NCBI GenBank assembly: GCA_032358255.1
Contig: JAULBX010009991.1
Span: 62,001-126,000 of the forward strand
Source: Heterotrichella gracilis
Taxonomy: Eukaryota > Sar > Xanthophyceae > Tribonematales > Xanthonemataceae
Direction of reading: 5' to 3'
Length of the DNA: 64,000 nucleotides
The position numbers were made by a program, and so were the translations under genes. The notes below the pieces were generated by a model that worked only from the letters and a program-made list of their open reading frames with translations, searched no databases and was not told the origin of the DNA. Each line of letters opens with the position of its first letter. Positions within the stretch are counted from its first letter, which is position 1. Of the stretch, positions 4,927 to 37,300 are shown one piece after another.

Positions 4927-7900
4927 CACAGCACGCGCTGTCCTGCTCCCACGGCTTGCAAGTGACGCTGCCATGGATTGAGGACATGCGCGACGGTGCT
5001 GCCAGTTTTAGGGCATCGCGCATGTGTTGTATGAAAGCTTGGTTGCCAATGGGGTCACAGGTGGACATGGCGCCAGGGGCAACTAGGTTGCCTAGTAGTT
5101 ATGTAGAATAAGAGGGAACTCTACCACAGAAGGCTGTCCTCTAATTCTTCCATGTTCTTTTATTGTTACAGTGTGTGGGTGTCTTGGGGCTTTGAGCACC
5201 CGAATGTATGTGCTGCACTCCCTCAGCAATGAATTTCTGAGAAGGTGATGCTGTTTTCATGCTGAGCGTTTTGCGCGACACGTGTCACAACCGCAAAGTA
5301 GGTATCCTTGGAGTGTGCATTTTTTACCAGCCGGCACAATAGTTTCCCAGGTTTCCCAGTGTTGAAAGAAAAGAAAACGAACTTTATGTATAAAGCTTTG
5401 TTGCCCTGTTCCATATTCCCAATGCCTTGTGCAAAATGAACACTGGTCGTCCGAGTGTGTGTATCACTTTTTCCACATAGAGGAGCGTTTGGCGCACCAA
5501 GGCTGCAATTGAATCGGTAACTGAGACAGTTTAGAAAGGTATACCCGGTATGTTCACAGTTCTATTTCAATGCGCACTTTGTATTCCTTAGCAAGAACAT
5601 TGTTGTATTTTCTGCTAGCAGGTAAGGTGTGGTGTGCCCCGCAACCCTAGTTTCAGTCGAGGCACTAGACAATTCTTTATCCCTTTTGCCTTCCACATCT
5701 TGCTTGCTCGTGTGTGTTTTGATCGCTTTACACACAAGGGGTTTGCAGCAAGTTTACTGTCAGCCACGACGCTAAGCAGTGGCCACATTATATGCACTGT
5801 GCACCCTAACACCTCCACAGGCAGATGCAATTGGCCTTGCAAAGCACTTCCAGTAATAAGAGACCTACTGGCTCTCTGGTGTTCAAACCACTTGCCAGGG
5901 TACTGTGCGCCGGCGCCTGAAAAGCACTGCCTGCCTGCTGTGCACAGGACAGGACATTGGTATGGAGACCCAATTGTGGCACTGTCTCAACTGCACTGAG
6001 CCTGCTGCACCAAGTTGCCATGGTGGGCAAGGCTGGTTGCCATGGGACACGCTGATGGATAACAAGCAGCCCCCAAAATAGCACCGCATGGATTGCAGCT
6101 GTGTTGGAACCAAGGCAGCAGCTGAACCTTCCACCGAGTTGCCCTCCTGTGGCCGCATGCCGGTACCAATGCCGGTACACCTTTTCATCTGTGTGACATC
6201 ACTTTGCAAAGGCAGAATGCTTTGCTAGCCGTCTCGCGCTTCCAGTCATTCTCCAACCCGGACCGTGCCGTTCAACTGTTAACTGTAGCAGCTGTTCACG
6301 GTACCACAAGAGTCAGCAAAGCAGTACACTGGGTTTGGGCGCGCAGTTTAGACGCGGCGCGATGGACCAGGCGACACGTGGTGTCATTGACATCACACGT
6401 CCACCTGAATCCGGCCGAGATCCGGGCGCGCGGATCGCGGGTGGTTTACCCCCCCCAGTAATCGAGCCGACATATCTAGCAGTAAGGAAGGATGTGGGTG
6501 CCCATTTCGACAGCAACAGCAAGACTTTGGGGATCCCAGACTGTAAGCTTCCCCTTCACCCAGTGAAAAGTAACAACATTGTGGGATGATAACATGCCGA
6601 ATCGTCCCCACTTGCCAGAAGAAAATACAACCCACAACAAAATGTTGGATTGGCGTATTTGTACCACCTGTATCTGTCCTCTGAGCTGGCTGGTCCGCCG
6701 GAAATGTCCGGAATTGGCGCAGTCCTCGCGGACTCCCGCTCAAAACCTAGTAGCTGCCATTTGGTGTGGCCAGCTGCAAAAAAAAAGGTCTGCGTTGTGA
6801 AGTTGCTGTGCCTGTTTGTGGGTCTGAAGTTCTCTATGAAGGTGCATGCGATATCACCTCACGCTGCTTTGTAAGTTGCAACAAACGTTCCTGATAACCC
6901 ACATACTTCCAGGACTATTGTCTGTCCTCACGCTTGTATATGCAACGCCCTGTGCTCTATTCTGCGGCAGCGAAGGGATTGTTGCGTGGATCCTTCTTAC
7001 GTTGAAGTGGCCCTTTCCAGGGTCCTTCCTTTTGTACCGTGTCTGGCTGTTGCTCTGTCTTTAGCAGTAATGGCGGTCTTTCCCCGCGTGCGATAAGGAG
7101 AGCTGCTCGCTGGGGATTTGTCCTGGTTCTACAGCCCACACGCAATTTTCTGCCTAGGCATCTGTTGGAGCAACCATCTAGAGAGGTGGTATACGGACGA
7201 CAATCCGACCTTCATCCTTAACACTTTCACAAGGTACGGGCATTGCGGAGCGCGGAACAACTGGGAGTTGCACTGCACATGGGAGTGGTCATCCCCTGTA
7301 CCATTCGTACCCAACGCTCGGGCGCATGACAGGGCATCGAAGTCCTTGGCGTGCAAGTTCTTTGTGACTCAATGTCGTGTCGTTGCTACCGTGCGTGGCT
7401 TGTTGTGAAGTACGCTGTTTAGTACGAGGGCGCAGTGTTGTCGGTCAACCTGGTGATGTCATGCATATACTCCCGCCAAACCCGTTCAATCCAGCATATG
7501 TACAGCTGGCTGTTTCGTGCCAGATCGTGCGCCGTTACGACTAAACAACTGACGGCTGCCTAGCTTACGCTTGATTGTTGGCACAACCTTTCTCACTTCC
7601 TCGAGTGAGCCACATTAAATGTGCCAAGGTGGGCAGTGCATGTTCTGCACGCGGACTGGTATGCACATGAGCAGAGTTTTGATCCAACTCTTCACAAGCG
7701 CCTCTGCACCGCTTGGGTGGCAGCTTTTAATCTTTGTGCCTTTGCACTGTGCGTTTCAAAGGTTCAGTTGCAGTGTCTATGTGGACAAATGCACCGGGGC
7801 TGTTCGCGCACCCAGGCTGTACGCACCATGCGCACCGTGAAACCATGATTGAAAGTGCGTGTAAGCGGGCAATGCTCAATGTTACCTGCACTCGTCGAAC

Positions 7901-19900: not shown

Positions 19901-22820
19901 CTGTTGCCGCCCTGCAACAACTCAAGGAAATCATCAGCACAGTCTGCGTATTGGCCCACCACCGTGAAAATATCGATGCCAGAAGCAATCAGTGTCAGCA
20001 TTTTTTTATAAAGCAATACCTGCCAGCCAGTAACTGTTGCATTCTGTCACCACCGACTCCTTAAAAGGAGGTCCTGCAGGCCCCCTGGAAAGGCTCTTGA
20101 AAGTGGCCAGTGCGCTCTGCAAGGCCTCTTCATGGCTGACCCTCCGGTACACTTCTGGAACCTCTCTCACATACTGACTGTGGGCTGCTGCTGCAGCACG
20201 CTTGCACTTGTTCACGGAAAATTGCGACAAGACATCGTCACAGGTGGTCAACCATTGCAGGGCAGCAGAAAGTTCTGGAACATGCCCTTCCCTGCCCTCC
20301 AAAGCGGTTCCTCCCCTTTGCAACAGGAAAACAAAAATCCTGTCAAATAAGGATCTCACGTGCGTCTTGAAGCATAGTACCCAGCCTGTCTACTCTTGTG
20401 CTTCAAATTTTCAAGTTGGGAGCAACCATGCATGGCCATCCGCTTGGCTAGTTTGCAGCAGACAAAACCATTACTGTACCTGGGAGAGGAAATTGTCAGC
20501 AATTCTAGGTGCTTATCAGGCTCCTCCAATGCAGCTGTTGTTTCAAGGAATGCTGTCAATAACAACATGCTACCATGCTTCCACTGCAACAGAGTAGGCA
20601 GCACACCAGCCCTGTCACCTGAATGTGAGCACGCAACTCAGCATTGTTCATAATTACAGGCAATACAGCAATTGTACGCACACATAGACAGCACCACCCA
20701 ACTTGGTGCCAGCATACAGGCACAACATATACCTGTTCACAACTATAACCATTCACCATGCACAGCCTTACTAGACTGCAGTCTAAGGTTGCTTGCCTGC
20801 TAATTGAGCTGCCAGGGAGGCAGTCTGCAGAGTGCTGACTTGCAGCCAAAACTGTTGCGACAGCACCTCCAATGGAGGCAGAGCTGTGCTTTGAACTGGC
20901 GGAGCCCATGTTGGGTTCCTGCCGCATTCGAAAGCCCATTGCAGCTTCAAAGATGTGAAGCAGGATATGCGAGGCACTACAATGGCAGCCCTGTACATTG
21001 ACGGACACGTTCGCTTTTTCCAATGATCTTTCAGACAGGAAACTCACAATCAATGCAGTCACCCAAATCACACCAATAACCTATCGGCAATGACAGCATG
21101 CTCAGCAATAGTTTGGGGTGGCATGTGGCGAGTGCAGGTGCAAGAGCCCGTTGTAATCCACTGCCATTCACAGGTGTGAGGGTGGGTGCGGACAGTACAA
21201 GTGACCTACTTATTGGCAATAAGTGGTCATTTGTACTGTCCGCATCTTCTCTCACACACCTGTGAATTGCAGTGATAACATTGGCCTTTCATCTGCACAC
21301 GCCACATGCTACGCCGCCCCATTGCTGGACATGCTTGCTTTGTTGCTATCCAAAACCAGCTGCTGCGAACGCATCTTTACCTACTGCTGCTCAGTGTGAA
21401 GAGTGCAGATGAGCTTTGATCAGCCGCCAGCACCCTACAGGTCTTGATCAGGCTCCGCACATGGGGCTCCAGCTGCTGCTGTCTATGATCCAGACCCTTG
21501 CATATATCTGCAAAGCTGGTACTGCCCACAGTGATGGAGTCATCCTGCAGCAGGGATGAGAATCATGCAGCAGGGATCAGCACCATGCGGCAGGGAGCAT
21601 CATGCGGCAGGGAGCATCATGCATCAGGGATCGGCATCATGCTGCAGGGATCAGCATCATGCAGCAGGGATCAGCTTTATGCAGCAGGAATCAGCTCATG
21701 CTTTTGTTCCATCCGCTGTAGCACGATCCACCGCGTGCTTTGGATCGACCATACAGCACCTGTAAGCATATCCACAGTTGCAACATGCAAAAAACAACCC
21801 CTTAAGCCCATCGTTACCTGGAAGATGAATGTCATATGTGGGACGCACCCTCCTGGGTGCAGTGACTGATTTGCACTAGATGTCCCACCTTCCACAGGCT
21901 TATCCGCTGGCTGCAATGCCTGCTGCAAGGCTGCTGCTGCCTGCACCTTTGCCGCCTGTGGTTGCACGATGACACAGGGTTTGTTGACAGAACCATAGTC
22001 ACACTTAATAGTTTTGGCACAGCAACCATCAATATGAGACTGCGATGATTGTAGACACCAACCAGAGGCCAGATCAGCGGCGCTGCAGGCAGCGTACCTG
22101 TGCGGCCCTGAGCTTGTGTAGCAGGTCAATCGGAAACCTCAAGCTTGGTTGGATGTACAATATGGTGTGACAGACCAGGTGTACATACAGCAGCACCTTC
22201 TGGAGTTCACCCGCTCTGCCTCCTTCAAAGGCGTTGAGGCCAACAGCGATCTCTAGAAAGATTACCCTGGCGTGCAGAACCATGCACAACAGGCTCAGCA
22301 CTAGCATAACAGATATGTTGGGGACACGAGCCACGCACTTGACTTACCTGCCGTTGGGGTCGTATCTTGCAGCAACAGCCTTGTGCAGTCTGCTGAGTTC
22401 CTGGACACACATGCAGCAAAGTTGCGAGTCAACCACTACAGCCCAAATGGGTACATCTCAAGTGGGTACAACTCTGATGGGAGTGTGAGCATCCCTGGGG
22501 GTTTGGGGTTGTTGCAAGACCCGCAACTGCTTTCATTGTGGCTGTGAAAGGAACCTCAGTCAGCAACACAATGCTGACTGGGCAGGAGCCACTTGGTATC
22601 TCACCTTGACCAAACCAGTCGCCACGTGATTGTTTTCAAAGGTGAAGCACTGCCCGAGTTGATCCACAAGTTGACTAGTCTGCTCTAAAGTGTCGCCTGT
22701 ATATGTGGTGAACAAGGGTCACATCAGTACTGATACACCATGCCCAACTGTGCAAGAGCCCAGCAAAAGACGTCGCTCACCAATTACTGCAGCGACTACA
22801 ACTTCAGCGTCATTCTGCAT
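16946..22820 (-). CDS. SMG8: SMG8, nonsense-mediated mRNA decay factor
   Basis: SMG8 forms a complex with SMG9 that binds and restrains the kinase SMG1, which phosphorylates UPF1. Fifteen exons (high to low): 22820-22781, 22696-22605, 22400-22348, 22266-22098, 21955-21818, 21544-21381, 20990-20840, 20583-20480, 20339-20020, 19911-19412, 18971-18780, 18544-18394, 18025-17877, 17509-17402 and 17125-16946; phases agree throughout, 836 codons. The start MQNDAEVVVAAVIG matches the family's VVG opening. Other family marks are LLYVHLVCHTILYIQPSLRF, LEPHVRSLIKTCRVL, AGRQQCESTSLTGRPC, YIGFEYE, VLLSPHQLG, QLRRMYVVTPHQEVPLA and CLPFMFGVPW. The length is shorter than in animals (about 990). The usual ECP-GHRF after YIGFE is replaced by ETAAGRRV, so conserved Cys/His are absent. 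The small exon 7-8 region is the least certain part. The gene is transcribed divergently from XPO4. Confidence 0.92.
17684..17760. repeat. Decayed copy of SMG8 exon 13 end
   Basis: Read on the minus strand this stretch resembles the 3' half of exon 13 (17877-17960): ATGGCCCT, ATGGGC, CGACC, ATAGTCAT and CTGACAGCAGC align with ATGGCCCT, ATGAGC, GGACC, ATGGTCAT and CTGGCAGCAGC. It lies in the intron that follows exon 13. Confidence 0.55.
21159..21274. mobile_element. Foldback/MITE-like element in SMG8 intron 6
   Basis: The arms, about 48 bp, begin CACTGCCATTCACAGGTGTG and end with the reverse complement CACACCTGTGAATTGCAGTG. They also share TGCGGACAGTACAA/TTGTACTGTCCGCA, with a small inner inverted repeat ACTTATTG/CAATAAGT at the centre. 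No coding capacity. It resembles a miniature inverted-repeat transposable element; no clear target-site duplication is seen. Confidence 0.75.
21545..21705. repeat. Minisatellite at SMG8 exon 6 acceptor
   Basis: About nine irregular units of 15-18 bp built on ATCATGCAGCAGGGATCAGC. The first unit supplies the CAG acceptor of exon 6 (minus strand, exon starts at 21544), so the array consists of repeated acceptor-like CTGCTGCAT motifs running upstream into intron 5. Confidence 0.8.
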
Positions 22821-23501: not shown

Positions 23502-26500
23502 ATGGAGAATGTGTTGCATGTTGTTGAGCAAGCCTGCCAGGAGTTTCAGGTGCGTACTGGGCGATGACAACGGTGGGCATTCGCTGGGGTGGGTGCCTCG
23601 GGTATGGTGGGCACCCAGGCTTTGTGGACACTAGGTGCATTCTAGCGGTCCCTGATATCGTATATGTTGTTCGTAGAACCCACTAACGCGGAGCAAAGCG
23701 GAAGCCACGCTGCTTGACTTCCGGCATTCAGCCAACCCGCTGCCTGCATGCCAATACATACTGGAGCAGTCGAGCTGTGACCAAGCCAAGTTCCACGCAG
23801 CAACAACCCTGCGGGAGTACGCTGTTCGGAGCTGGAGCATCCTCTCAGTGGAGACCCGCAACTCGCTGCGGAGCTACCTCCTACAGTACATACTCCAGTA
23901 AGTCAACCCCTCGTCCTGGCCAGATCAAAAGCATGGCTCAGGGTTTGCGGCACCTTAGCTCTGTCCTGGCAGCTCTTACACCATCTTTGAGTGGGTTTCC
24001 TCCTGAAGTCCCTGTAGCGAGGGCAGCCAATGTGGCTGCTCCTTGCCTGGTCAGTTCAAGCCAAGTCTTGGCCCTGATCTGCACCATGCTCCTCCTGCAC
24101 AACATAGAGTTGCTCTCGTCCCTTTGACTCCTACGCAATGTCCCTGTATACCCAATGCGCACCTGTCTTGAAGCGTGGACTGATATCCTTACGCCCTGGT
24201 TTGTGCGCAGCCATGCCGCGCCCACATACAACGTTGTCCAGAGCCAGCTCATGGGGGCGCTGGCTGCCGTGGTCAAGCGCGGCTGGACAGACACAGGGGC
24301 GGAGGACAAGCAGCAGTTCTTCCAGGTGAGGCAGCAGTCAACCACAGTCCCAGCTATGCACGGAAGCACTTCTTTGGATACAGTTGCCCACATGCAACTG
24401 GACGAGTGGTGCTACGGGCCGCGGGAATGAAAGAAGGCATTTTTTTCCATTTCAACCGTCACAACCACACAGTCACGGCGCTCCCAAAAACCATGAAAAT
24501 ATCTTGGAGTTGGGTGGGCGCCTTCCCAGGGCACGCCCAATTCTCAGATGGATGGGCATCAGTGCCTTTCAACAAGCCCACTATGCTCAGTAAAGCGAAC
24601 CCATTGGCTGCAGGAAGTTGAAGGGCGCGCCAGCTCTAGCGGGAACGCCGTTGCGCGCAAGGTTGGCATCCAGGTGCTGGAGGCTGTGGTCACCGAGTTC
24701 TCGCCTTCCACTGCCAGCCCCATGGGCCTGAGCTGGGACTACCACGAGAAATGCAGGTCCTCACTTGAGGTGCGGGCTGCTCCGCCCTCTGTTATAAGCT
24801 GTTAGTTAGTTAGTTACATAATTACATGCATCAGCAATACAGCCAGATGCCGATGGTTTTAATTACCTCACATATATGTTTGGAATTTTCTTGATGGTTT
24901 TTTAACTGTGTACCACATTGCAGAGTTGACACACATCAAACGTTCTGTTACCTTGCAACATTCAGAAGGAGCTCACGTATGCACCCCACCCCCTGCAGAA
25001 GGATTACCTGCAGCAGTTCTTCATCCATGCGGTCAACATCGCACGGGAGGCGGCGCCGGCGGCCCCCTTGGGCGGCGATGGCGGTGTGTGTCTGGCCTGC
25101 ATCACGCTCATGTGCGCCATTCTCAGCTGGGATTTCAGGAAGACGCTGGGTGTGAACGGCTTTGGCGTGGAGTCCATGCGGCCCATCAACGACGTGCTGC
25201 AGGCGAGTGGGGGTTTTATTGCTCTTATAATGTGGGGCACGTAGGTTAATACATGCGAGTGTTGCCTTGTAAATTTACAGCTGTCTTTACTTGCAAATTC
25301 TCTGATATGTACACAATTAAGGGCACTTCTTTCTTTAAAGAGGGGGGATTGTCTACTGGAAAAAGCGTCAACTGTTAAAGTTTACGAAAATGTCGTTGCA
25401 CGTGCATCACCAACACCACATCACGCGCAGGTGAAACCTCCTGCCAGCTGGCAGCCTGTGCTGCTCGCTCCCGAGGCGGTGTCTTGGCTGGTTGAGCTGC
25501 TGCACACCATGCGCCACACGGGGGAGACAAGCGGCCCCCTGGCTGAGCAGGCGCGGCAGCTGCTGGTGCTGCTGTGCTCAGTTGGGGGTGACATCTTCCC
25601 TAAGGAGTCGCCAGGTACATAAATAGAAGGATAAAACATACAGTACATGTTATATGAAAATTAAATGTGGTGATATTGTTTTGACTTTATCTAGCTTTCA
25701 ACGTTTTATTTGTCATTGTAATGATGATGAGAAAGCCATGGGATTGTTAGCAGGCTCCCCCCTTAATCCCACATCGCCACCTCCAATCCCCCACAGGTGA
25801 CCGCAGCCAGCTGGGCCTTCCCATAGGCGGAAGCCGCAAGGCAGCCTACCTGCGCCGCCTCCTGCAGGGCATGTGGCCCTGGATCAGCCCCCCTGACGCC
25901 GCGGTCCACCGCGCCGCCGCCGCAGACGAATCGGAGCTTCTGAGTGGGTGCCGAGCCATCGCCGCGGCCGCGCCGGTGCACCGCGCCAGGGGGTTTGAGC
26001 TGGCGGCGGAGGGCGGCGAGGTGGCGGGGGCGGGGGGTGCGGGGGTGTTGGAGACTCTGTCGCGGCTCACGTGCGCGTGTTTGAGCGGCGGGGGCGTGGC
26101 GGAGGAGTCGGAGGGCAGCTGGGTGTCGGATGCGACCAGCATGCTGATCGAGGTGCGAGAAGGAGAAGGGATTGGGGTTTAGGGTTCGGGGATTGGGCTG
26201 GCTGCCAGGAATTCACATACTTGCGCATTCACTGAACCCTAAGCATCAAGTTTAACATATTACCTGTGGTCATTGCCTTGTGGCCTGGGATAAACCTGCT
26301 GTCCCCAGAGCACAATAAATTATTAATGGTCTGTACTGTAAACAGGCACCTGTTGGATCATTGAAGCTTCTGTCCCCAAGAAACTCTAAACCCTAAACCC
26401 TATATCAAAATATACCCTAAACCCTGAACCTGCACTCGCTGCCTGCAGGCCTGGGTGGAGCTGCTCTCCCCAGAGAATCCTTTGGCAGCGGACGGGTCCC

Positions 26501-29500
26501 TGGCCACCATCCCCGGGGCTGCCATACATGGGGCTGCGAATGTGTTCACTGCACTGGTGGAGGCATCGTTGCGGGATGCGGCACAGGGCGCCTTCCAGGT
26601 GGGGGGTTTATGTATGAGTTCAGGGGGGTAATGGTGTACTTTTAGAAGGTGGGGCTACTATTGGTGTTGATTTTGTTGTAGTCAGATGTAGTTATGATTG
26701 TGACTGTGAATATGACTTTTATAATTGTGACTGTGAATATGACTGTTTTTTGGATGTATGGACATCTTATGGGATGTCATGGTGCTTTCATATCCCACAA
26801 TGTATAAATGCCGCAGTGTATGAATAATGATTGAATAAGATGTGATTTAATTGTAATTATGACTTTTATTGGCATGTATCAAGTATATCTGTGGCTGCAA
26901 TAGGAAGCAGAGACCGCCGACTACGAGGCTGCCGCCGACGCCACCAGGGAGGAGCGATACACGGAAGGGGCGCTACTGGGGAGGGCGGCCCCCTTGTCTG
27001 TGGTGCCCATGCTGGCCTCGCTCATCCACGAGCGGCAACACCACCTACTGCACTGCTCTACATCAGGTGGGTGATCTTGCAACTGCGTGTAAGTAAGTAA
27101 TGACCGCTGATTAAGGTGTGCAAGTGCAAGTGAACGGGGAAAGCAGAGGGGCAAAACAGGTTGGCAAACATTTGTGTACTTGTCCCTATTGGGATGCATC
27201 CACATACGGGAAATCTGCCGTAAATGCACCTGGAACACTTCTCAAGCAGCTGCTGGGTGCACGCCCTCGTGTAAACCCACCGCCTGTACTGCGCGGCATC
27301 CATTCTACCCACTGGCGCATCCCCACCGGTGCTCAAAACCCAAACCCTTCACCGCGCGGCGCAGGGGGCGACCCCACCGTCGCCCTCGAAGAGCTGTGCT
27401 GGCTGCTGCGCATGGCGGGACACGTGATCGCTGACGGGGGCGAGGGGGAGTTCCCGCTGGTGCCCCTTTCCATTGCTGCCGCGTGCACGGAGGCTGCTGC
27501 GCAGGGCCTTCCTGACCCGGTCGTCACGCTGTCAAATTGCATACTGGGGGTGGCAGGTATGGATTGGCATTGGAATCTGTTGCATGAGGAAACTGCCAAG
27601 CGCGCGCCTCACCCTCCTCGCTCTTATGGTGGTCAGCTTGCATTTCATGGAGGCAGAGCTGTGGGTGGGTAAACCATAACCTACAACCTAAACCCCCCAC
27701 AGACCCCTAAACTCTGAATGCCCGCAGGCATATGCCTCAATTCACACGCCCTGATTGGGGCCAGCCTGCGCCTCATGGAGGCGCTGTGTGGGCCCTAAAA
27801 CCTAATCCCAAAACCCTAATCTTAAACCCTAATATCCGCAGGCATGTGCCTCAACCCGCACGCGCTCACCGTGGTCAGCCCCCGTCTCATGGAGGCCGCT
27901 GTGTGGGCTGTGGCGCTGTGGGCCGACACCTACCTCCTGCCAGAGCAAGAGGTGTCGCAGGCGGTGCTTGCGGCGTATGCACTGGAGGGCGGCGGCCTGC
28001 AGGTCAGTAGCTACATGTTAGTTTAGAATCTTTCCTCAAGAACTCATAGGAACAAGCAGTACCACGGACTCATCACCACTCACTTGCCAATGTCGATCAT
28101 TGTGCTCCATCTTCAAGGGTAACAAGGAAGGTTGACTCATTCATGTGGTGCTAGGTAATAAGTCAAGGTGGCCGAAAATAGAAAGCAATGCCATTTATTT
28201 ACGATGTTGTTCTTTTTTGCTGCAGGTGCTGGACAACGTTGTCAAGGTGGCAAACGTGTCCCTGGTGGGATTTGCAGGGGAGGTCGACCTGCATGCTGTG
28301 TTGTGTCAGCGACTGATACCAACGCTGGTGCGGCGCCGCACGCGCTGCAAGGTAAGGCTGACTGCATCGCGGCATTGTCATGCCACTGGCTGGCCATCCG
28401 TGGATGGCAATTTGCTCCCATTTGAACCGCCACCATTTCAAATAAACCTTCCAGTCAACCAAGCAGCGCTGACGGTGCTAAATAACTAAAGAAACCTGAG
28501 ACAAAATGTGTAAACCAATGCCATTTCCCCTATTCCCAGGTGCTTGTGGAGCTTGACTCGTGGCGCCAGCTGGCAGCTGCCTACGCCACTCGACAGGACG
28601 CCATATGGAAACACCTTGACCACAGGGCCTTGTAAAGCTCATTCATTGGCCAGGATGTGCCGCGCTGGCGGTGCTAATAAATGAAACAAACCAGTGACAA
28701 AAGAGTACTAAACCAATCCATTCCCCCGATTGCCAGGTGCTTGTGGATTTGGACTCGTGGCGCCAGCTGGCAGCTGCCTTTGCCACTCAGCAGGACGCCA
28801 TCAAAGCCCTGCCAGAACACCTACACCGGGCGGTGGCGCGTTCGCTGACTGCTGCTGCTGCTGGGTGCAAGGACGCGGAGGCGGTGCGCCAGTACGTGTC
28901 GGCTCTGGCGGGCACTGCGGCAGGTATGGCTGGGAGTGGAGTGGATGCTGTGGTGGTGGGAATATAAGCAAGGGTGTGGGGTGTGGCCACCGAGGGCCCA
29001 GACTCGAACGTGCTGTGATTACTCGCTTCATGTTTAGACAATGAGAAAAGGGGTTTTCTTTAAATTTGCAGGTGATCTCATCACCCTGGCCGGGCGCCTC
29101 GACCTGGACGCCATCGCGCCCCGACCCGACATCATGCACCACGTGTGCTGCCTGCTGGAATCATTCCGTGGGATGGCCAAGGGCACACAGCCGCGCACGC
29201 AGCCCGCGCTGTACGACGTGCTATCCGCCCTCATGGCCCGCCTGCTGCGGCTGCAGGTGAGGGTATTAGGGCGTAGGAGAAGTAGGACGCAGAAACTGGG
29301 CTCTAGATAGTAGTGTATATGGTGTGGGGAGTAGGGTGGTGATTCCACAGATCTCGTGGAACAGTATGGCAGTTTGACAAGTGTGCAGGCGCGCACGCAC
29401 CCCCCGCTGTATGACGTGCTATCCGCCCTCATGGGCCGCCTGCTGCGCCTGCAGGTAGGTGTAAGCGTAGGAGTAATTGTAGGCCGCAGAAGCTGGGCTC

Positions 29501-32288
29501 TAGATAGAGTGAATGGTATGGGATGTGAGGATGTGGGACGGCGATTTCTTAAATCTTGCCACATAGGAACAGTGTTGTTTCATGCAACACCAGAAACCCT
29601 AAACCTTCATTCCTTCGCAGGCCGCGTACCGCGCGCACCCGCACTTTGACCAGCCTCATCCTCAAGCTAAACCCTAAGCACAAATGCACCACCACCAACC
29701 CTAAACCCTAAATCCTGATCCCTTTGCAGGCCGCGTACCGCGCGCACCCGCACGTGACCTGCCTCATCCTCAAGCTTGCTGGTGACATTGTGGAGGGCCA
29801 TGTGTCGTACCTGTCGGCGCCCGCTGCGCAGGGCCTGTGCCACTGGGTTCTGGAGCTGCTGCAGCTGTATGCAAAGTACAACATGGGGCTGGTGTCGGTG
29901 CAGGTGCGACGAATTGGCAACACACTCCAATTTGGAAAATGGAAATTGTTTGGTTTAAAAGTTGTTTTCTATGGGAGGTTTTCAGTGAAAAAGGCGACTG
30001 GTTTTCCTACTGATGGCACCAGAGCTGCTGCGGCTATATGGCGTGGCAGTGGCTTTGCAAGGGTTGGTGAGGGTTTGGCAATTTGGCATAGCGCGTCGTC
30101 GACAACAGTCCCCCGCCCGCAGGCCGCCAAGTCCCTCCAAGCCGAGCGCCAGGACGAGATGTACCGTGACCTGCGAGCGCTGCTCAAGCTGCTGACGCAC
30201 CTCACGCAGCGCGACCTGGTGGATTTTGGCAGCGAGAGCGTGAGCGGGCAGGCGGCGGCGGTGGATGTGGCGGAGGTATGGGCAACTCTCCTGCGGGCAT
30301 GTTGTGGTGTTGGCTATGCACGTCCCTTATATGCACCTCTGCCTGCCACCCCGTCAATTTTGTTCTTCAAATGGCGCGCATACAGGGTGTAGGCTAGCAT
30401 CATACTACTGAAATCGGTAAAATTGAGCATCGTCATTTTGTTGCAGCTCATCCTCCTCTCCCTTGACATCCTCACCCCCCTGGACCTGCGCAACTACCCA
30501 AAGCTGTGCCATTTGATTCATTATCACAAGTAGGGATACACCATTATTACGATCCATTTATATTTTTTATCCTTTCCTTTACCCTTATCCCCCGCCTGCC
30601 GCAGGCCATCTTCCTGTCCCTTGACATCCTCATCCCCCTCATCTCAATGGACCTGCTCAAGTTCCCCAAGCTGTGCCGCCTCTACTTCACGCTACTGGCA
30701 TACATGCTGGAGGTAAGGTCAGGCAGGGAGTAAGGGCGATCTTCAGCCCTGTGACGTTCTGAAACTTCTCCTGAAGCTGTACCAACTGCACTCCTAACCT
30801 GTCACTGTACATGCTAAGGCAAGAGACGATTGTAATCAGCCTTTGGGGGATGCTTGCACCAACCCTACCCTGCAGGGTGCCCTTTGTGAATTGGCTTTCA
30901 AGACCGTATCTGTTGCTGCTTTGCAAATGTATTCCAACCGGGTTCCACCTCTGTATTGCGCTGTGCCGTTCTCATATCTACCTCTGTTTTCCTGCTGTTT
31001 TGCAGGTGTATTCCGACCGGGTTGCGCAGCTGCCCCCGCAGCAGTTTGCCAGCCTCATGGGCACCCTGGAGTTTGGCATTAGCAGCAGCGAGGGGGACGT
31101 GGTGCAGGACTCCTTGGAGGCGCTGGCCTGCATCGCAAAGCACCAGTTTGAGGCGGGGCAGCACGGCGCGCCAGGGCTAGGGGCACACAATGCGCCAGGT
31201 GCGGTGTGGGAGGGGACGGGCTCTACCCGGGGTGGGAAAAATAGTGCGAATATGATAAGCAGCAGTGTCTAAGCAGCTCGAGGTTAGCTTGAACGGCAGC
31301 AAGAGGAAGTGGTGCAGGAGAAGTCAGAGGCGCTGGCGTCTCATCGCAAAGTACCGATTTGAGGCAGGGCAGCGTGGCGCGCAAGTTTAATTTCAGGAAA
31401 TAGACTTATCTTTTCAAATGTCCAATCTTAGTACATATTGCATTTATTATGCCGCAGGCCCCAGTGGTCGCACCTGCCTTAGCCTCTTCATGCAAGCGCT
31501 GCTGCAGCTGGCACAAGTACAAACCCTGTAAAGTGTTTGATGAACTACCTAAATTGCATGTGTCATGCTGCAGGCCCTGAAGGCCGTACTTGCCTTTGCC
31601 TCTTCATGCAGGCGCTGCTGCACAAGCACATATACAGTTCCAAACCTTAAATTTTTCAATTTATTACATAAATTTGCATTCATTTTGCTGCAGGCCCCGA
31701 CGGCCGCACCTGCCTCAGCCGCTTCATGCAGGCGCTGCTGCAGCGGGCGCTGTTTGAGGATTCACAGGGGGAGTGGCTGGATGCAGCAGCGGATGCGCTG
31801 CTTCCCCTCATGCTGTGCGAGCCGCATGCGTTCCAGCAAATAGGTGTGTCCTGCGCCCTGCAACCATTTCCACGTTGCTACCATGTGTTGATGTTGAGCG
31901 ATGTATGTTCTGCTGGGTCAGGTAAGCGCTCGTACTGAACTTATGCTAAAAATAAAATAGAGCATCCTATATAAACAACTGCTTCGATGCAGGTGAGCCC
32001 TCCCTGCTGGGGCCTGCAACGTGACCAGTAACATGGGAAATAAATCCAAAAAACACACCAACAATACCCTAGGATACACTGAAAGTAAGCGTTCCTTGCC
32101 ATGCAGGCGAGAGCCTCCTGGCTGGGCAGCAGGACGAGGTGCTGCGCGCCACCCTCATGCGCGCCCTCACTGAGCTGACGGCGGCCAACGGCATCACGTC
32201 GTCGCTGGACCGCGCCAACCGCCGCCGCTTCCGCACCAACATGCAGCGCTTCATCACCGACGTGCGCAGCGTGGTGCGGGTGCGCTAG
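23502..32288 (+). CDS. XPO4: Exportin-4 (importin-beta family nuclear transport receptor)
   Basis: RanGTP-dependent nuclear export receptor; in animals it carries eIF5A and Smad3. Twenty exons: 23502-23549, 23677-23897, 24211-24325, 24614-24769, 24999-25202, 25431-25614, 25797-26152, 26449-26598, 26904-27066, 27365-27556, 27842-28002, 28226-28351, 28737-28923, 29072-29256, 29730-29903, 30123-30275, 30605-30712, 31006-31198, 31694-31843 and 32107-32288. All phases agree, 1135 codons, the normal length for XPO4. Diagnostic segments are AATTLREYAVRSWSIL (importin-beta N-terminal), VTEFSPSTASPMGLSWDYHE, DIVEGHVSYL and the C-terminal SSLDRANRRRFRTNMQRFI. Start chosen: ATG 23502 opens a 16-codon first exon ending in AG|GTGCGT. 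Intron 5 uses a GC donor (25203). Introns 10, 12, 14 and 16-19 hold decayed copies of flanking exon edges; one (29389-29454) could be an extra in-frame exon. Confidence 0.95.
26380..26432. repeat. CCCTAAA motif cluster in XPO4 intron 7
   Basis: Contains ACTCTAAACCCTAAACCCT and ATACCCTAAACCCTGAACC within 50 bases. It is directly followed by the acceptor of exon 8, and another TTTAGGG lies at 26177. Short interstitial telomere-type motif. Confidence 0.75.
27606..27795 (+). repeat. Two decayed copies of XPO4 exon 11 start
   Basis: Copy A (about 27606-27671) and copy B (27723-27795, including a CGCAG acceptor) both resemble exon 11 from 27842 onward; shared blocks are GCATxTGCCTCAA, GTGGTCAGC, CTCATGGAGGC and GCTGTGTGGG. 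Copy B still reads open for about 23 codons. They lie in intron 10 with CCCTAA-type motifs between them. Confidence 0.75.
28463..28830 (+). repeat. ~190-bp tandem duplication spanning XPO4 intron 12/exon 13
   Basis: The first unit (28463-28640) carries intron tail, CCCAG acceptor and the first 80 bases of an exon 13 copy (VLVELDSWRQLAAAYATRQD); the second unit (from about 28655) is the real acceptor and exon 13 (VLVDLDSWRQLAAAFATQQD). The first copy runs into a stop and has no donor, so it is a dead exon fragment. Confidence 0.85.
29193..29513 (+). repeat. ~198-bp tandem duplication of XPO4 exon 14 end and donor
   Basis: The 3' part of exon 14 with its donor and about 50 bases of intron (29193-29311) is repeated at 29391-29513; GACGTGCTATCCGCCCTCAT and GGGCTCTAGATAG are shared. 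The copy has gained an upstream GTGCAG and keeps a CAG|GTAGGT donor. Confidence 0.9.
29389..29454 (+). other. Candidate cassette exon 14b of XPO4
   Basis: Sixty-six bases, bounded by TGTGCAG acceptor and CAG|GTAGGT donor, reading in phase 0 with both neighbours as ARTHPPLYDVLSALMGRLLR plus LQ. Inclusion would add 22 residues repeating the helix at the end of exon 14. Whether it is spliced in cannot be told from DNA alone. Confidence 0.4.
29594..29775 (+). repeat. ~106-bp tandem duplication at XPO4 exon 15 acceptor
   Basis: AAACCCTAAA, a CTTTGCAG/CTTCGCAG acceptor and GCCGCGTACCGCGCGCACCC occur at 29594-29669 and again at 29700-29775. The second is the real exon 15 start (29730). The first runs into CCTCAAGCTAAACCC and has no donor. 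Confidence 0.88.
30436..30683 (+). repeat. Duplicate of XPO4 exon 17
   Basis: 30447-30529 reads LILLSLDILTPLDLRNYPKL after a TTGCAG acceptor; the real exon 17 (30605) reads AIFLSLDILIPL and FPKLCRLY. Shared DNA: TCCCTTGACATCCTCA and AAGCTGTGCC. The upstream copy is 83 bases to its possible donor, so using it instead would shift the frame. Confidence 0.85.
30919..31033 (+). repeat. Decayed copy of XPO4 exon 18 start
   Basis: TTTGCAAATGTATTCCAACC at about 30920 mirrors TTTGCAGGTGTATTCCGACC at 31000, where the real acceptor lies; GGGTT follows both. The copy has lost its AG acceptor. Confidence 0.75.
31304..31752 (+). repeat. Copies of XPO4 exon 18 middle and exon 19 start
   Basis: 31304-31384 repeats exon 18 (GTGGTGCAGGA, GAGGCGCTGGC, TTTGAGGC, GGGCAGC). 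31449-31520 and 31569-31632 repeat the acceptor and start of exon 19 (31694): CAGGCCC, GGxCGxACxTGCCT and CTTCATGCA, GCGCTGCTGCA. All lie in intron 18; exon 19 edges are thus present three times in tandem. Confidence 0.82.
31986..32150 (+). repeat. Decayed copy of XPO4 exon 20 start
   Basis: ATGCAGGTGAGCCCTCCCTG at about 31988 resembles ATGCAGGCGAGAGCCTCCTG at 32101, followed by CTGGGGCCTGCAACGTGA versus CTGGGCAGCAGGACGAGG. Located in intron 19. Confidence 0.7.
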
Positions 32289-34381: not shown

Positions 34382-37300
34382 GCGCCACAACCCACCAATG
34401 GGGGCGCAAGGACCACAGCCTTTGTCGGTGGCAGGCCACGTGGCGCACACTAGCAACAAGGGTAGCGCAAGGCGCCACCAGCCCAACCCCTGTTGATCTA
34501 GTTGTGTTCAAAGCCCTTGGCACCTGGATATCTCCAAGAAGTGGAGAGCAACCCCCAGACAGCACACATTTGAGGGAAGCAAGTGAACAGTTGGTCAGCT
34601 TGCTCTGCAGGAGTGTGAGTGTGAGCGGGCAGGTTTCTCAGCCGTGGGTGAACCCAAAACGCACAAAAGGGACTGTCGCGGTTCCAACAGCGAGCGCTGC
34701 TACACTGATATGTGAAACCCTGGCGAGGGTGCTGAGCACCAGTGAAAGCAGCGGCTCCTCCAGAGAAGGGGATGCATTAGAAGTGAAGGATATGGGAAGG
34801 ACGGGAGGGGCATTGGTCGACAGTGCTGCGGCTGCAGAGTTTGCAGCATGCGTTCTAGCGGCGGCAGAATTTCGGCAAACAGCGCTGCCGCCGGGCATGC
34901 TCACCGCACTTGGGTCACTGCTGGCACAAGGGGAACAATCTTACGAGAAGTTGAAAGAGATTGTGGGCTCGCCCCCACAGGTGGGTGGATGGCCATTTGT
35001 CACCTTGCGGGACCACATCACGATTGCTTCAGTGCTTGACTTCATGTATATCTGTCCTGTCATAATATTGCACCGACGGCTGCATGCATGCAGCAATGCA
35101 TGCATGTTGCCCGCGAATAAAATGCTTGTTCATTACATCACACTCCCAACCGAACGCCTCAAAATACGCCCATCCTGCCGCTGCAGGGATGCTCTTTGGC
35201 CACTGATTGGCTGCCACCTGGTTTCCTGCTTGCCTTTGTTACCCGCAGCAGCGAAGAGCAGGACCACGGGTTTGCCATGGGCTTGGCGATGCAGATCAAG
35301 GAGAGGGACTTTGAGCGCGGGGTGGAGGCAATGTACCAGGTATGGGCACATGTGAGTGGGCAGCGCACGTGAATGCTGCAGGTGGGGTGGATGATGGCAC
35401 ACATCAAATGCACACTCTTGCCATTGCGGCATGCTTCATACCAGAACAGCATGGATCCAGGTTATGCAAAGAAGACTCCCTCTGCATCCCATGGACATCC
35501 CGTGTGCATGTAGGTCAACGACTGAATGTGACTGTGAGCCAGTATGCCCTTTCTGGCAGGTGTTTGACTCGGCAGGCATGCACGAGGCTGCCACCAGGCT
35601 GTTGGTAGAGGCGCTGGCGGCTGCACTGCAAACTAGCGACTGGTTTGAGACCGGACTTGCGGCCAAGGTGGGTGGATTTGCACTAGGGGCTGTCATGCAG
35701 CATACCACCGTGGCGCTCACTGTGGGTCACTGCTTTGGATTGTATGTACAGGGTTTACTGCAGGATGTTGTGGTAGGCAGTGGCACAGAAGGGCAGCGTT
35801 TGAGCGAATAAGTGTTGGTGGTTGGCAATTAGGGATAGGTACAGTGTGACACAACACGCACATGGGTAGCCAGAATCTTGAACACAACCTCCAGAGCCTG
35901 TTTATTTTCTAGCTTGTGGGAACCTGGAGTCCTGCCCTCAACCACCACCCTGCGCATAGTCACCGCTTCACCCAATTCCCAGTATGTTGGATACCTGTGC
36001 ACAAAGGTTTCATTTCACGTGTCAGATGTCCACGAGTTCCCCTGCACGCATGTTTCACATTTCAGATGTCTGGATGCCCCTGACCACAAGACTCCCACAT
36101 AACACATATCGCTGTATTCCTGCAGCTGTCTGGAGAGCTGCTGCAGATGCGCCACCTGGTGACCATTGAGGGGCCCAGCGAGGAGGTCACTCGGGCCCTC
36201 AAGATCATGGTCCTGCAAAACAAGCTTGCCCTCAGAACCATTGATGTCAGGTGCGCCTGCAAGTAAGCTATTCAAAGTATTGTGGCGGAAGAATCTGGCT
36301 TGTATTGTTGGACGCACGGAGCATTGGGCATCAGAAGATGTGCATACCTTGTAGCTGCACCCATGTGCAGCATGAATGCAACTTCCAGGTATTCTTTGAG
36401 GTTAATATGCGAATTTAACCACTATCGTGATGAAATAATTGAACCACAGTCAAATAGCTACTCTACCAACAGTATGTGATCAAATCTACCCCCCCTCTGC
36501 TTTAGCAACCTGCAGACCTCCATGCCTGCCAGTGTACCTGTTGTGCCTGGCTGTCACCTGTGGGCATTTTCTGCTTCCTTTCTTTTTACTGGTGAGTCAG
36601 CAACATGTTGTACCCCTGCCTCGCAGTGCCCTCCTCCTGGCTGCCCAGCTGGCAGACCTGGAGAGCATCGAGCGGGGGGACATGGGCAACGTGGTGTCCA
36701 TGTCTCACCACACGCTGGCAACATTCATAGGTAACAATGGCATACACTCCAATCTTTCTCATTTTTGCGTCTCTACATACCCCTGTCCGTATCTGGCAGT
36801 TGTTGCTTTGTTGGGTTGCTTACTCCTATCCCGTTCTGTTTGGTGCTGCACATGGTATATGTGTCTCATCACACCTTGGCAACCATCCCAGGGGATACGC
36901 TCGTGCGGGTGCTGGATAGGGACTGCCCGCTGCAAGACCCGGTGGAGTTCCACCAGGCAATGGAGCTGTCGCTTAAGTTGCATGATGTGGCGCTGCTGCA
37001 AGTGGTGCGTTCTGATAGTCAATTGAATCCTTTTTCTTGCATTTTTATTGTATTTTGGGGTAAATATTGCATGTTTATAGTATTGCATTATTCAGGTCAT
37101 GCATGCTGCTCTCATATATTTGCATATGTTAAATTTGCATTTTCTTTTGGGAGTTTGTATGGTCAGCAATGCTGACAAATTGTGCGAATTGCACATGATT
37201 CCAACTGGGTGCTGACATGTTGTTGGCATCAAACGTAGTTTCACACTCTGTACAATATCAGGTAGGCTGCTCCTGTGCCGGCGTCTGGCATATATACACA

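Follow-up and report, generated by a model that had tools for sequence, protein, structure and literature searches.

The origin of intron sequence is an open question, as is the persistence of long introns in some compact genomes. Both are raised by the exportin-4 gene (XPO4) of Heterotrichella gracilis, which lies in a 64-kb stretch of DNA (the window, meaning that whole stretch) and several introns of which carry decayed copies of the edges of neighbouring exons. What kind of process puts such copies there, and is it a matter of this gene or of the genome? In many cases the exon-edge copies are accompanied by a scrap of telomere repeat, and the combination suggests that breakage at exon edges, patched with telomere DNA, is what makes introns longer.

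Results

Exon-edge copies in the introns of XPO4

The hand-rebuilt model of XPO4 has a coding sequence of 3408 nt (1135 aa, no internal stop), with AG at all 19 acceptors and, among the donors, 18 GT and one GC; phmmer with its translation retrieved Exportin-4 (PDB 5dlq, E = 1.2e-86). Each of the 19 introns was compared with its upstream and its downstream exon, which makes 38 tests, each set against 1000 dinucleotide shuffles. The original prediction had placed 11 copies in introns 10-19 and had named similarity above that of shuffled sequence as a check on them. Nine of these copies are solid by this measure, with scores of 35-108 against 26-33 for the best of 1000 shuffles, and all but two of them are acceptor-side copies (Table 1). 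The acceptor-side copy of exon 18 is marginal, and the copy of exon 20 in intron 19 fails, being at chance relative to shuffles (p = 0.54). In introns 1-9, the shuffle test of each neighbouring exon found no strong exon copy. Weak matches were seen between intron 7 and exon 8 (p = 0.002), between intron 3 and exon 3 (p = 0.038) and between intron 15 and exon 15 (19 nt, score 28 against 27 for the best shuffle); these, and another in intron 11, are either short or no larger than may turn up among 38 tests. Telomere-like fillers stand in introns 10 and 14, and the other introns of XPO4 with such events have none or one telomeric word. In the exon 15 event, telomeric words are also present to the left of the exon copy (29594-29605), that is, on both sides of it.

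Table 1. Features of the XPO4 gene in the window (positions are those of the whole stretch; X, duplicated segment; F, filler)
Feature	Position	Strand	Basis	Exon portion of the copy (identity)
XPO4 (exportin-4) gene, 20 coding exons	23502..32288	+	hand-built gene model and PDB 5dlq match	
Telomere-like tract in intron 7	26386..26425	+	weak flank similarity, score 30	
Exon 11 start, decayed copy 1 (X)	27606..27665	+	72% identity, shuffle test	
Telomere-like filler (F), exon 11 copy 1 to copy 2	27687..27712	+	flank repeat score 35	
Exon 11 start, decayed copy 2 (X)	27728..27793	+	80% identity, shuffle test	
Telomere-like filler (F), exon 11 copy 2 to functional exon 11 acceptor	27793..27832	+	flank repeat score 70	
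Intron 12 3' end and exon 13 start, copy	28463..28604	+	repeat scan, shuffle test	28540-28604 (89%)
Exon 14 end, donor and intron 14 start, copy	29386..29522	+	repeat scan, shuffle test	29386-29454, donor side (91%)
Intron 14 3' end and exon 15 start, copy	29594..29668	+	repeat scan, base-by-base reading, shuffle test	29621-29668 (96%)
Telomere-like filler, exon 15 copy to functional exon 15	29667..29712	+	flank repeat score 87	
Exon 17 start with acceptor, copy	30443..30510	+	repeat scan, shuffle test	30449-30510 (89%)
Exon 18 start, possible 17-nt copy (marginal)	30928..30944	+	score 29 against best shuffle 28	
Exon 18 3' part, donor side, copy inside intron 18	31277..31385	+	77% identity, shuffle test	
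Exon 19 start with acceptor, copy 1	31437..31512	+	repeat scan, shuffle test	31458-31512 (85%)
Exon 19 start with acceptor, copy 2	31553..31622	+	repeat scan, shuffle test	31574-31622 (86%)

Exon-edge copies beyond XPO4

Of the 15 local repeat matches that reach a score of 45 within the 64-kb window, 10 fall in XPO4. From the assembly (68.5 Mb, 903 contigs) a sample of 27 pieces, each of 10 kb, was taken, including two from the contig that holds the window; a bacterial stretch (L009) and an all-N locus were dropped from the sample counts, and the remainder together with the window gave 26 sequences totalling 314 kb, or 0.46% of the assembly of this one genome. Gene models outside XPO4 came from a small HMM gene finder, which was first trained on XPO4 and afterwards on its own predictions; it gave 62 genes with about 410 introns in these sequences. 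A Pfam scan of five predicted proteins gave domains in four (6PF2K with histidine phosphatase; AAA ATPase; MFS; WD40) and none in the fifth. The plastid RuBisCO family, looked for as a help in placing the organism, gave no match.

At a score of at least 45 and an offset of up to 1000, the 26 sequences contain 146 direct local repeats and only 4 inverted ones, and inverted or template-switch copying was rejected on this count. Base composition alone was rejected as well: 98 matches scoring at least 40 were obtained, against none in each of 5 block shuffles, in a set that included the bacterial and the all-N sequence. Merging of overlapping matches (offset up to 600) left 95 clusters, among which 59 pair an exon with a noncoding copy, 22 are exonic in both copies, 11 are confined to introns and 3 are intergenic. 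The exon-copy class is defined by at least 12 nt of exon sequence paired with a noncoding copy and excludes the 22 clusters exonic on both sides; its noncoding copy is intronic in 54 cases and outside any predicted gene in 5. The exon-edge events have offsets of 65-272 nt, and the duplicated segment X measures 27-136 nt in young events. Their distribution is uneven, such pairs being present in 16 of the 26 sequences. Counts of merged clusters per predicted gene are 13 in L031, 8 in L026 and in L032, and 7 in L015 and in XPO4; the latter is among the dense genes and neither the densest nor unique, four other predicted genes having at least its cluster count. The gene of L021, which with L026 and L031 counts among the hot ones, is PFKFB-like.

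An earlier set comprised 301 introns, and 12% of these contain a copy (score 38) of one of their adjacent exons; the share is at most 0.03% when the comparison is with exons from other genes and 0.44% when it is with non-adjacent exons of the intron's own gene. The median length was 398.5 nt for the introns with a copy and 275 nt for those without.

Decay of the copies and lengthening of existing introns

The 59 exon-copy pairs range in identity from 68 to 96%, and duplication has therefore recurred over time. Over 54 of these pairs, mismatches at codon positions 1, 2 and 3 amount to 0.110, 0.109 and 0.211, and 33 of the 39 indels in the exon parts are not multiples of 3. This pattern fits one copy in free neutral decay paired with a constrained exon undergoing synonymous change; the copies, as a class, are therefore not functional alternative exons, and the pattern lacks the coding constraint on both copies that tandem or mutually exclusive exons would show.

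Birth of an intron from a duplicated proto-splice site would make the surroundings of donor and acceptor match in register, at an offset equal to the intron length. None of 108 alignment blocks scoring at least 40 is in register, and ungapped in-register identity is at background level for 408 introns; this origin was rejected. The highest value of the 408 belongs to intron 36731-36891 of the window, where the end of the upstream exon resembles the intron's own 3' end (46% ungapped), which makes it a weak candidate for intron birth. With no in-register duplication, it is therefore existing introns that lengthen, by and large.

Telomeric repeat between the copies

Seven contigs (C70, C140, C526, C609, C717, C770, C824) have (CCCTAAA)n arrays that begin within their first 7 bases; CCCTAAA/TTTAGGG is therefore the organism's own telomere repeat. 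With overlaps included, exact matches to the 16-mer CCCTAAACCCTAAACC number 3052, against 1 for the reversed control. Introns carry 10.4 telomeric heptamers per kb (6.28 in the CCCTAAA and 4.13 in the TTTAGGG sense), whereas intergenic DNA has 2.4 and exons have 1.0 per kb, and no 7-mer is more frequent in introns than AAACCCT. Among the 20 circular classes that share this composition, the telomere class has 799 occurrences in introns, the runner-up 141 and the median class 69. Telomere-like tracts of at least 12 nt number 125 (median length 18 nt), and 120 of them have full flanks (5 do not): 104 are intronic (0.78/kb), 10 intergenic (0.10/kb) and 6 exonic.

Base-by-base reading of 22 of the youngest pairs showed in many of them the form X - F - X', two copies of the segment with a filler F between them. 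The filler of L030 consists of three telomere units, and those of L013, L021, L022, L023 and L024 contain one or more units, with variants; the remaining fillers read are simple repeats or unclassified. One array, at 7155-7357 of L021, repeats X and F together. A gap, part of which may be decayed duplicated intron, separates the aligned copies in 80 of the 95 clusters, and its median is 51 nt in young exon-edge events.

A telomeric 7-mer is present in 22 of 54 fillers, against 7.3 expected from length-matched random intron segments (maximum 14 in 200 draws). The telomere link was found and mostly tested on the same data; nearest to a hold-out are the fillers of the 40 events outside the base-by-base reading, the XPO4 members of which had been read beforehand, and here 14 of 40 have a telomeric heptamer against 5.9 expected (p = 0.002). 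Among 49 events, the discordant ones comprise 12 with telomeric words only between the copies and 3 of the opposite kind (p = 0.035), and 11 of the 49 outside segments contain such words. With 32 of 54 fillers lacking an exact heptamer, and some being other simple repeats of GGT and CCATT type, telomerase cannot be the sole source.

The association was also approached from the tracts, in a search that started from them and not from the repeats, and that therefore removes one bias. Direct repeats within 200 nt of a tract (score at least 36, telomere words masked) flank 45 of the 104 intronic tracts, against 5.4% of 1500 control intron positions, leaving 59 of 104 without a flanking repeat at this score. 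Removal of four hot loci still left 26 of 69 flanked. Elsewhere, 2 of 6 exonic tracts and 1 of 10 intergenic ones are flanked, the latter against 0.9% of 1500 controls.

Position of the events relative to exons and splice sites

If X were placed uniformly, 31% of events would touch an exon by at least 12 nt, 37% would be confined to introns and 32% would be intergenic. Of the 38 clusters with 85% identity or more, 6 are exonic in both copies and were left out of the placement test; the other 32 divide into 25 exon, 6 intron-only and 1 intergenic clusters, against 10.0, 11.9 and 10.1 expected (chi-square 34, p = 5e-8). The exon class is thus in 5-fold excess over intron-only events and in 25-fold excess over intergenic ones, figures that would include a bias of a factor probably under two, as noncoding pairs should decay in both copies and exon pairs mainly in one. 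An exon boundary falls within the exonic copy in 19 of 25 young events and in 47 of 59 of all ages, against 49% of random exon-overlapping placements, an excess that is expected if insertions internal to exons are purged.

Telomeric tracts of at least 7 nt cluster around splice sites, with 186 of 339 within 60 nt of one against 133.7 expected (maximum 167 in 1000 repositionings). Up to 60 nt from an acceptor, the CCCTAAA orientation prevails by 65 to 18 (p = 2e-7), whereas near donors the two orientations are equal (58 C against 62 G, p = 0.78). We read this as insertion either way, followed by selection where a pyrimidine tract is needed.

Discussion

The structure of these events is well supported: the X - F - X' anatomy, the telomeric content of many fillers, the bias towards introns and exons, the neutral decay, the direct orientation and the lack of signs of intron birth. 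The original prediction proposed that introns of this lineage may grow by local tandem duplication across splice sites, in a process whose graded decay made it look recurrent. Lengthening by local duplication across splice sites is supported, as a genome-wide phenomenon and not as a peculiarity of XPO4, and recurrence agrees with the graded identities of the copies aligned with their exons (68-96% over 59 pairs). The term tandem duplication is incomplete in that young pairs are built as X - filler - X', and the telomeric component (22 of 54 fillers with telomere repeat against 7.3 expected) had been missed.

We give a probability of roughly 55% to the reading that introns grow by repeated local X - F - X' insertions, through breaks at exon edges, fill-in and, often, telomerase; the break, the fill-in, the action of telomerase and the choice of splice site are what we infer from the structure. 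Such an event would begin with a staggered break leaving single-stranded ends at or near an exon edge, and fill-in of the overhangs would then copy X to both sides. In small tandem duplications made by overhang fill-in, the copies are described as abutting. Before joining, telomerase or the capture of a telomere fragment would often add telomeric repeats to one end, and X - F - X' would be sealed by end joining. Splicing could then use the copy attached to the rest of the exon, which is possible because X carries the splice site, so that the frame would stay intact and the other copy would pass with F into the intron. The intron-side copy would finally decay neutrally. Telomerase RNA-binding (PF12009) and Ku (PF02735) domains are present in the assembly. 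The preference for exons over introns and intergenic DNA is not accounted for by the break model alone. It is possible that breaks begin in exons and that the survivors of selection are those in which X reaches a splice site.

In a stronger version, telomerase would be a main driver of intron lengthening in this lineage: transcribed exon edges would break and be healed by telomere addition and fill-in, and the CCCTAAA tract would supply a pyrimidine tract, possibly also a branch point, which would make the duplicated splice site functional from the start. We hold this version only tentatively and would sooner bet against it.

Other explanations have to be weighed against breaks patched with telomere DNA. 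Plain local tandem duplication, by paired nicks, slippage or template switching, would treat the telomeric tracts as older sites, fragile or prone to slippage, that provoked it. Direct orientation and short units fit this explanation (146 against 4 matches; offsets of 65-272 nt), as do the 32 of 54 fillers without an exact telomeric word and the array of L021 (7155-7357) in which X is repeated with F, and apparent filler may partly be duplicated intron decayed past recognition. Vaughn and Bennetzen reportedly described insertions in rice in 2014, and Schiml is said to have dealt with paired nicks in Arabidopsis in 2016. However, a filler within the duplicated unit should flank X on both sides, and the discordant events stand at 12 with words only between the copies versus 3; the roughly 4-fold higher frequency of telomeric words in introns, relative to intergenic DNA, is also left unexplained. 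We consider plain duplication unlikely, without taking its chance as negligible. Captured DNA would mean that broken telomere fragments or a telomere-associated retroelement are joined at breaks in place of telomerase synthesis. Capture is an alternative named in the mammalian work (PMC2246262) and agrees with fillers that vary and are sometimes non-telomeric and of low complexity. The shortness of the tracts (median 18 nt) speaks against it, as does the fact that, among the fillers listed, no shared non-telomeric body was seen by eye, and we regard capture as distinctly improbable.

The preference for CCCTAAA within 60 nt of acceptors (65 to 18, p = 2e-7) might reflect convergent selection for splicing, with CCCTAAA-like words acting as branch points and pyrimidine tracts, in which case the repeats would be coincidental. 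Yet the orientations are equal near donors (58 C, 62 G, p = 0.78) and direct repeats flank 45 of 104 intron tracts; selection can filter orientation, but it cannot make duplications, and this explanation has very little probability in our view. Some copies might be taken for functional alternative or mutually exclusive exons, as their frames are in part open and the gene finder once called 27728-27787 and 29389-29454 exons, and one of them again in the next run; mismatches at codon positions 1 and 2 that are half those at position 3, and frame shifts by 33 of 39 indels, make this scarcely believable. Nor do we see much chance at all for an assembly artefact or fused haplotypes. The assembly is a draft of 903 contigs, with at least one bacterial sequence in the stretches read, but the copies differ from their exons by 4-32% in a graded manner, short units with telomeric filler recur, exon-edge pairs are present in 16 of 26 sequences, and fused haplotypes would duplicate longer stretches.

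Several known systems resemble these events in part. In mammals, telomerase inserts telomeric repeats where chromosomes break, and the target site is duplicated in some cases (Nergadze et al. 2007, PMC2246262); break-site duplication is given for 6 of 130 rodent and 4 of 25 primate interstitial telomeric loci (PMC2246262, Table 1). Like those loci, the tracts described here lie inside chromosomes and are short stretches of the telomere repeat of the species itself, with flank duplications of the break-repair type (45/104 against 5.4%). Unlike them (PMC2246262), they are intronic in 104 of 120 cases, with 45 of the 104 flanked by repeats; exon edges are often part of these repeats, and introns become longer as a result. 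Fill-in of 3' overhangs by CST-guided Pol alpha-primase, followed by end joining, produces small tandem duplications (Schimmel et al. 2021, PMC8355091), which share with ours the short, direct and local character (146 direct against 4 inverted; offsets of 65-272 nt) and, on our reading, the filled-in overhangs; the complex at work there, CST, is telomere-associated. In contrast to these duplications (PMC8355091), ours often have telomeric filler between the copies, are fixed in introns and are biased towards exons.

In Arabidopsis and rice, action of telomerase on free 3' ends in transcribed DNA has been proposed for telo boxes (Gaspin et al. 2010, PMC3022908), which resemble our case in that AAACCCTA words are dispersed in genes. 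Introns are not enriched there and 5' UTRs are, the density in introns and in the genome being 150.7 and 155.2/Mb in Arabidopsis and 72 and 81.1/Mb in rice (PMC3022908). The same 8-mer reaches 1471/Mb in the introns studied here (196 in 133 kb), 340 in intergenic DNA and 154 in exons, counted on both strands, which may differ from the strand counting of that paper. Flanking duplications at telo boxes are not mentioned in the passages considered (PMC3022908). Duplication-made introns (Lehmann et al. 2010, PMC2891723; potato RdRp, PMC4974935) likewise show local exon duplication altering intron content, but give in-register copies at both intron ends (PMC2891723), of which none was found here. 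Introners also add intron sequence genome-wide, with target-site duplication (PMC9860276); that duplication is of 3-9 bp, whereas X in our young events is of 27-136 nt and the fillers read are telomeric, simple or unclassified. The intron and repeat passages of the Coccomyxa genome paper (PMC3446292) do not mention such exon copies. In searches of the open PMC literature, which leaves subscription journals mostly outside, titles and abstract openings gave no description of telomere-filled exon-edge duplications in introns.

To conclude, the duplicated units, the filler and the decay are all readable in this genome, and break repair as a source of intron DNA thus becomes directly testable. Instances of the X - F - X' signature can be tallied, the exon serves to date each of them, and strains can be compared. 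A link between the machinery of telomere ends and gene structure would follow, and if telomerase is a main driver, the introns of this lineage would be largely a fossil record of telomere-patched breaks.

Repeated exon edges and tandem repeats

At positions 1498-2258 of L015, a 10-kb sample stretch of the same assembly, several copies of an exon edge with the sequence VASHTIGGLHAVV form an array, with CCCTAAA-rich spacers between them. The copies lie at offsets of about 112 and about 241, and the array seems to be an amplification of one unit composed of a duplicated exon edge and its filler. At positions 7155-7357 of another sample stretch, L021, an exon end with its donor is present three times with telomere-like spacers in between, perhaps through a single insertion that was then followed by plain tandem duplication. 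Tandem repeats are also found in and near XPO4.

Tandem repeats in and near the exportin-4 gene (window positions)
Position	Unit	Copies	Location
26692-26744	27 bp	2	XPO4 intron 8
21541-21701	20 bp	~8	upstream of XPO4

Sequence composition of the assembly

Genome-wide, (ATGC)4 had 644 matches (two strands, overlaps counted) versus 1 for the reversed control; TGCATGC-type words rank as top 7-mers of intergenic DNA and are among the top 7-mers in introns. Judged from its sequence, the 10-kb stretch L009, read from the 894-kb contig C1, is bacterial DNA (GC 35%, long ORFs without introns), Bacteroidota-like by eye, and its source is a companion bacterium present in the assembly.

Candidate intron birth

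The 3' end of the intron at window 36731-36891 is similar to the end of the exon that directly precedes this intron. This intron is the best in-register candidate, for either intron birth or acceptor copying.
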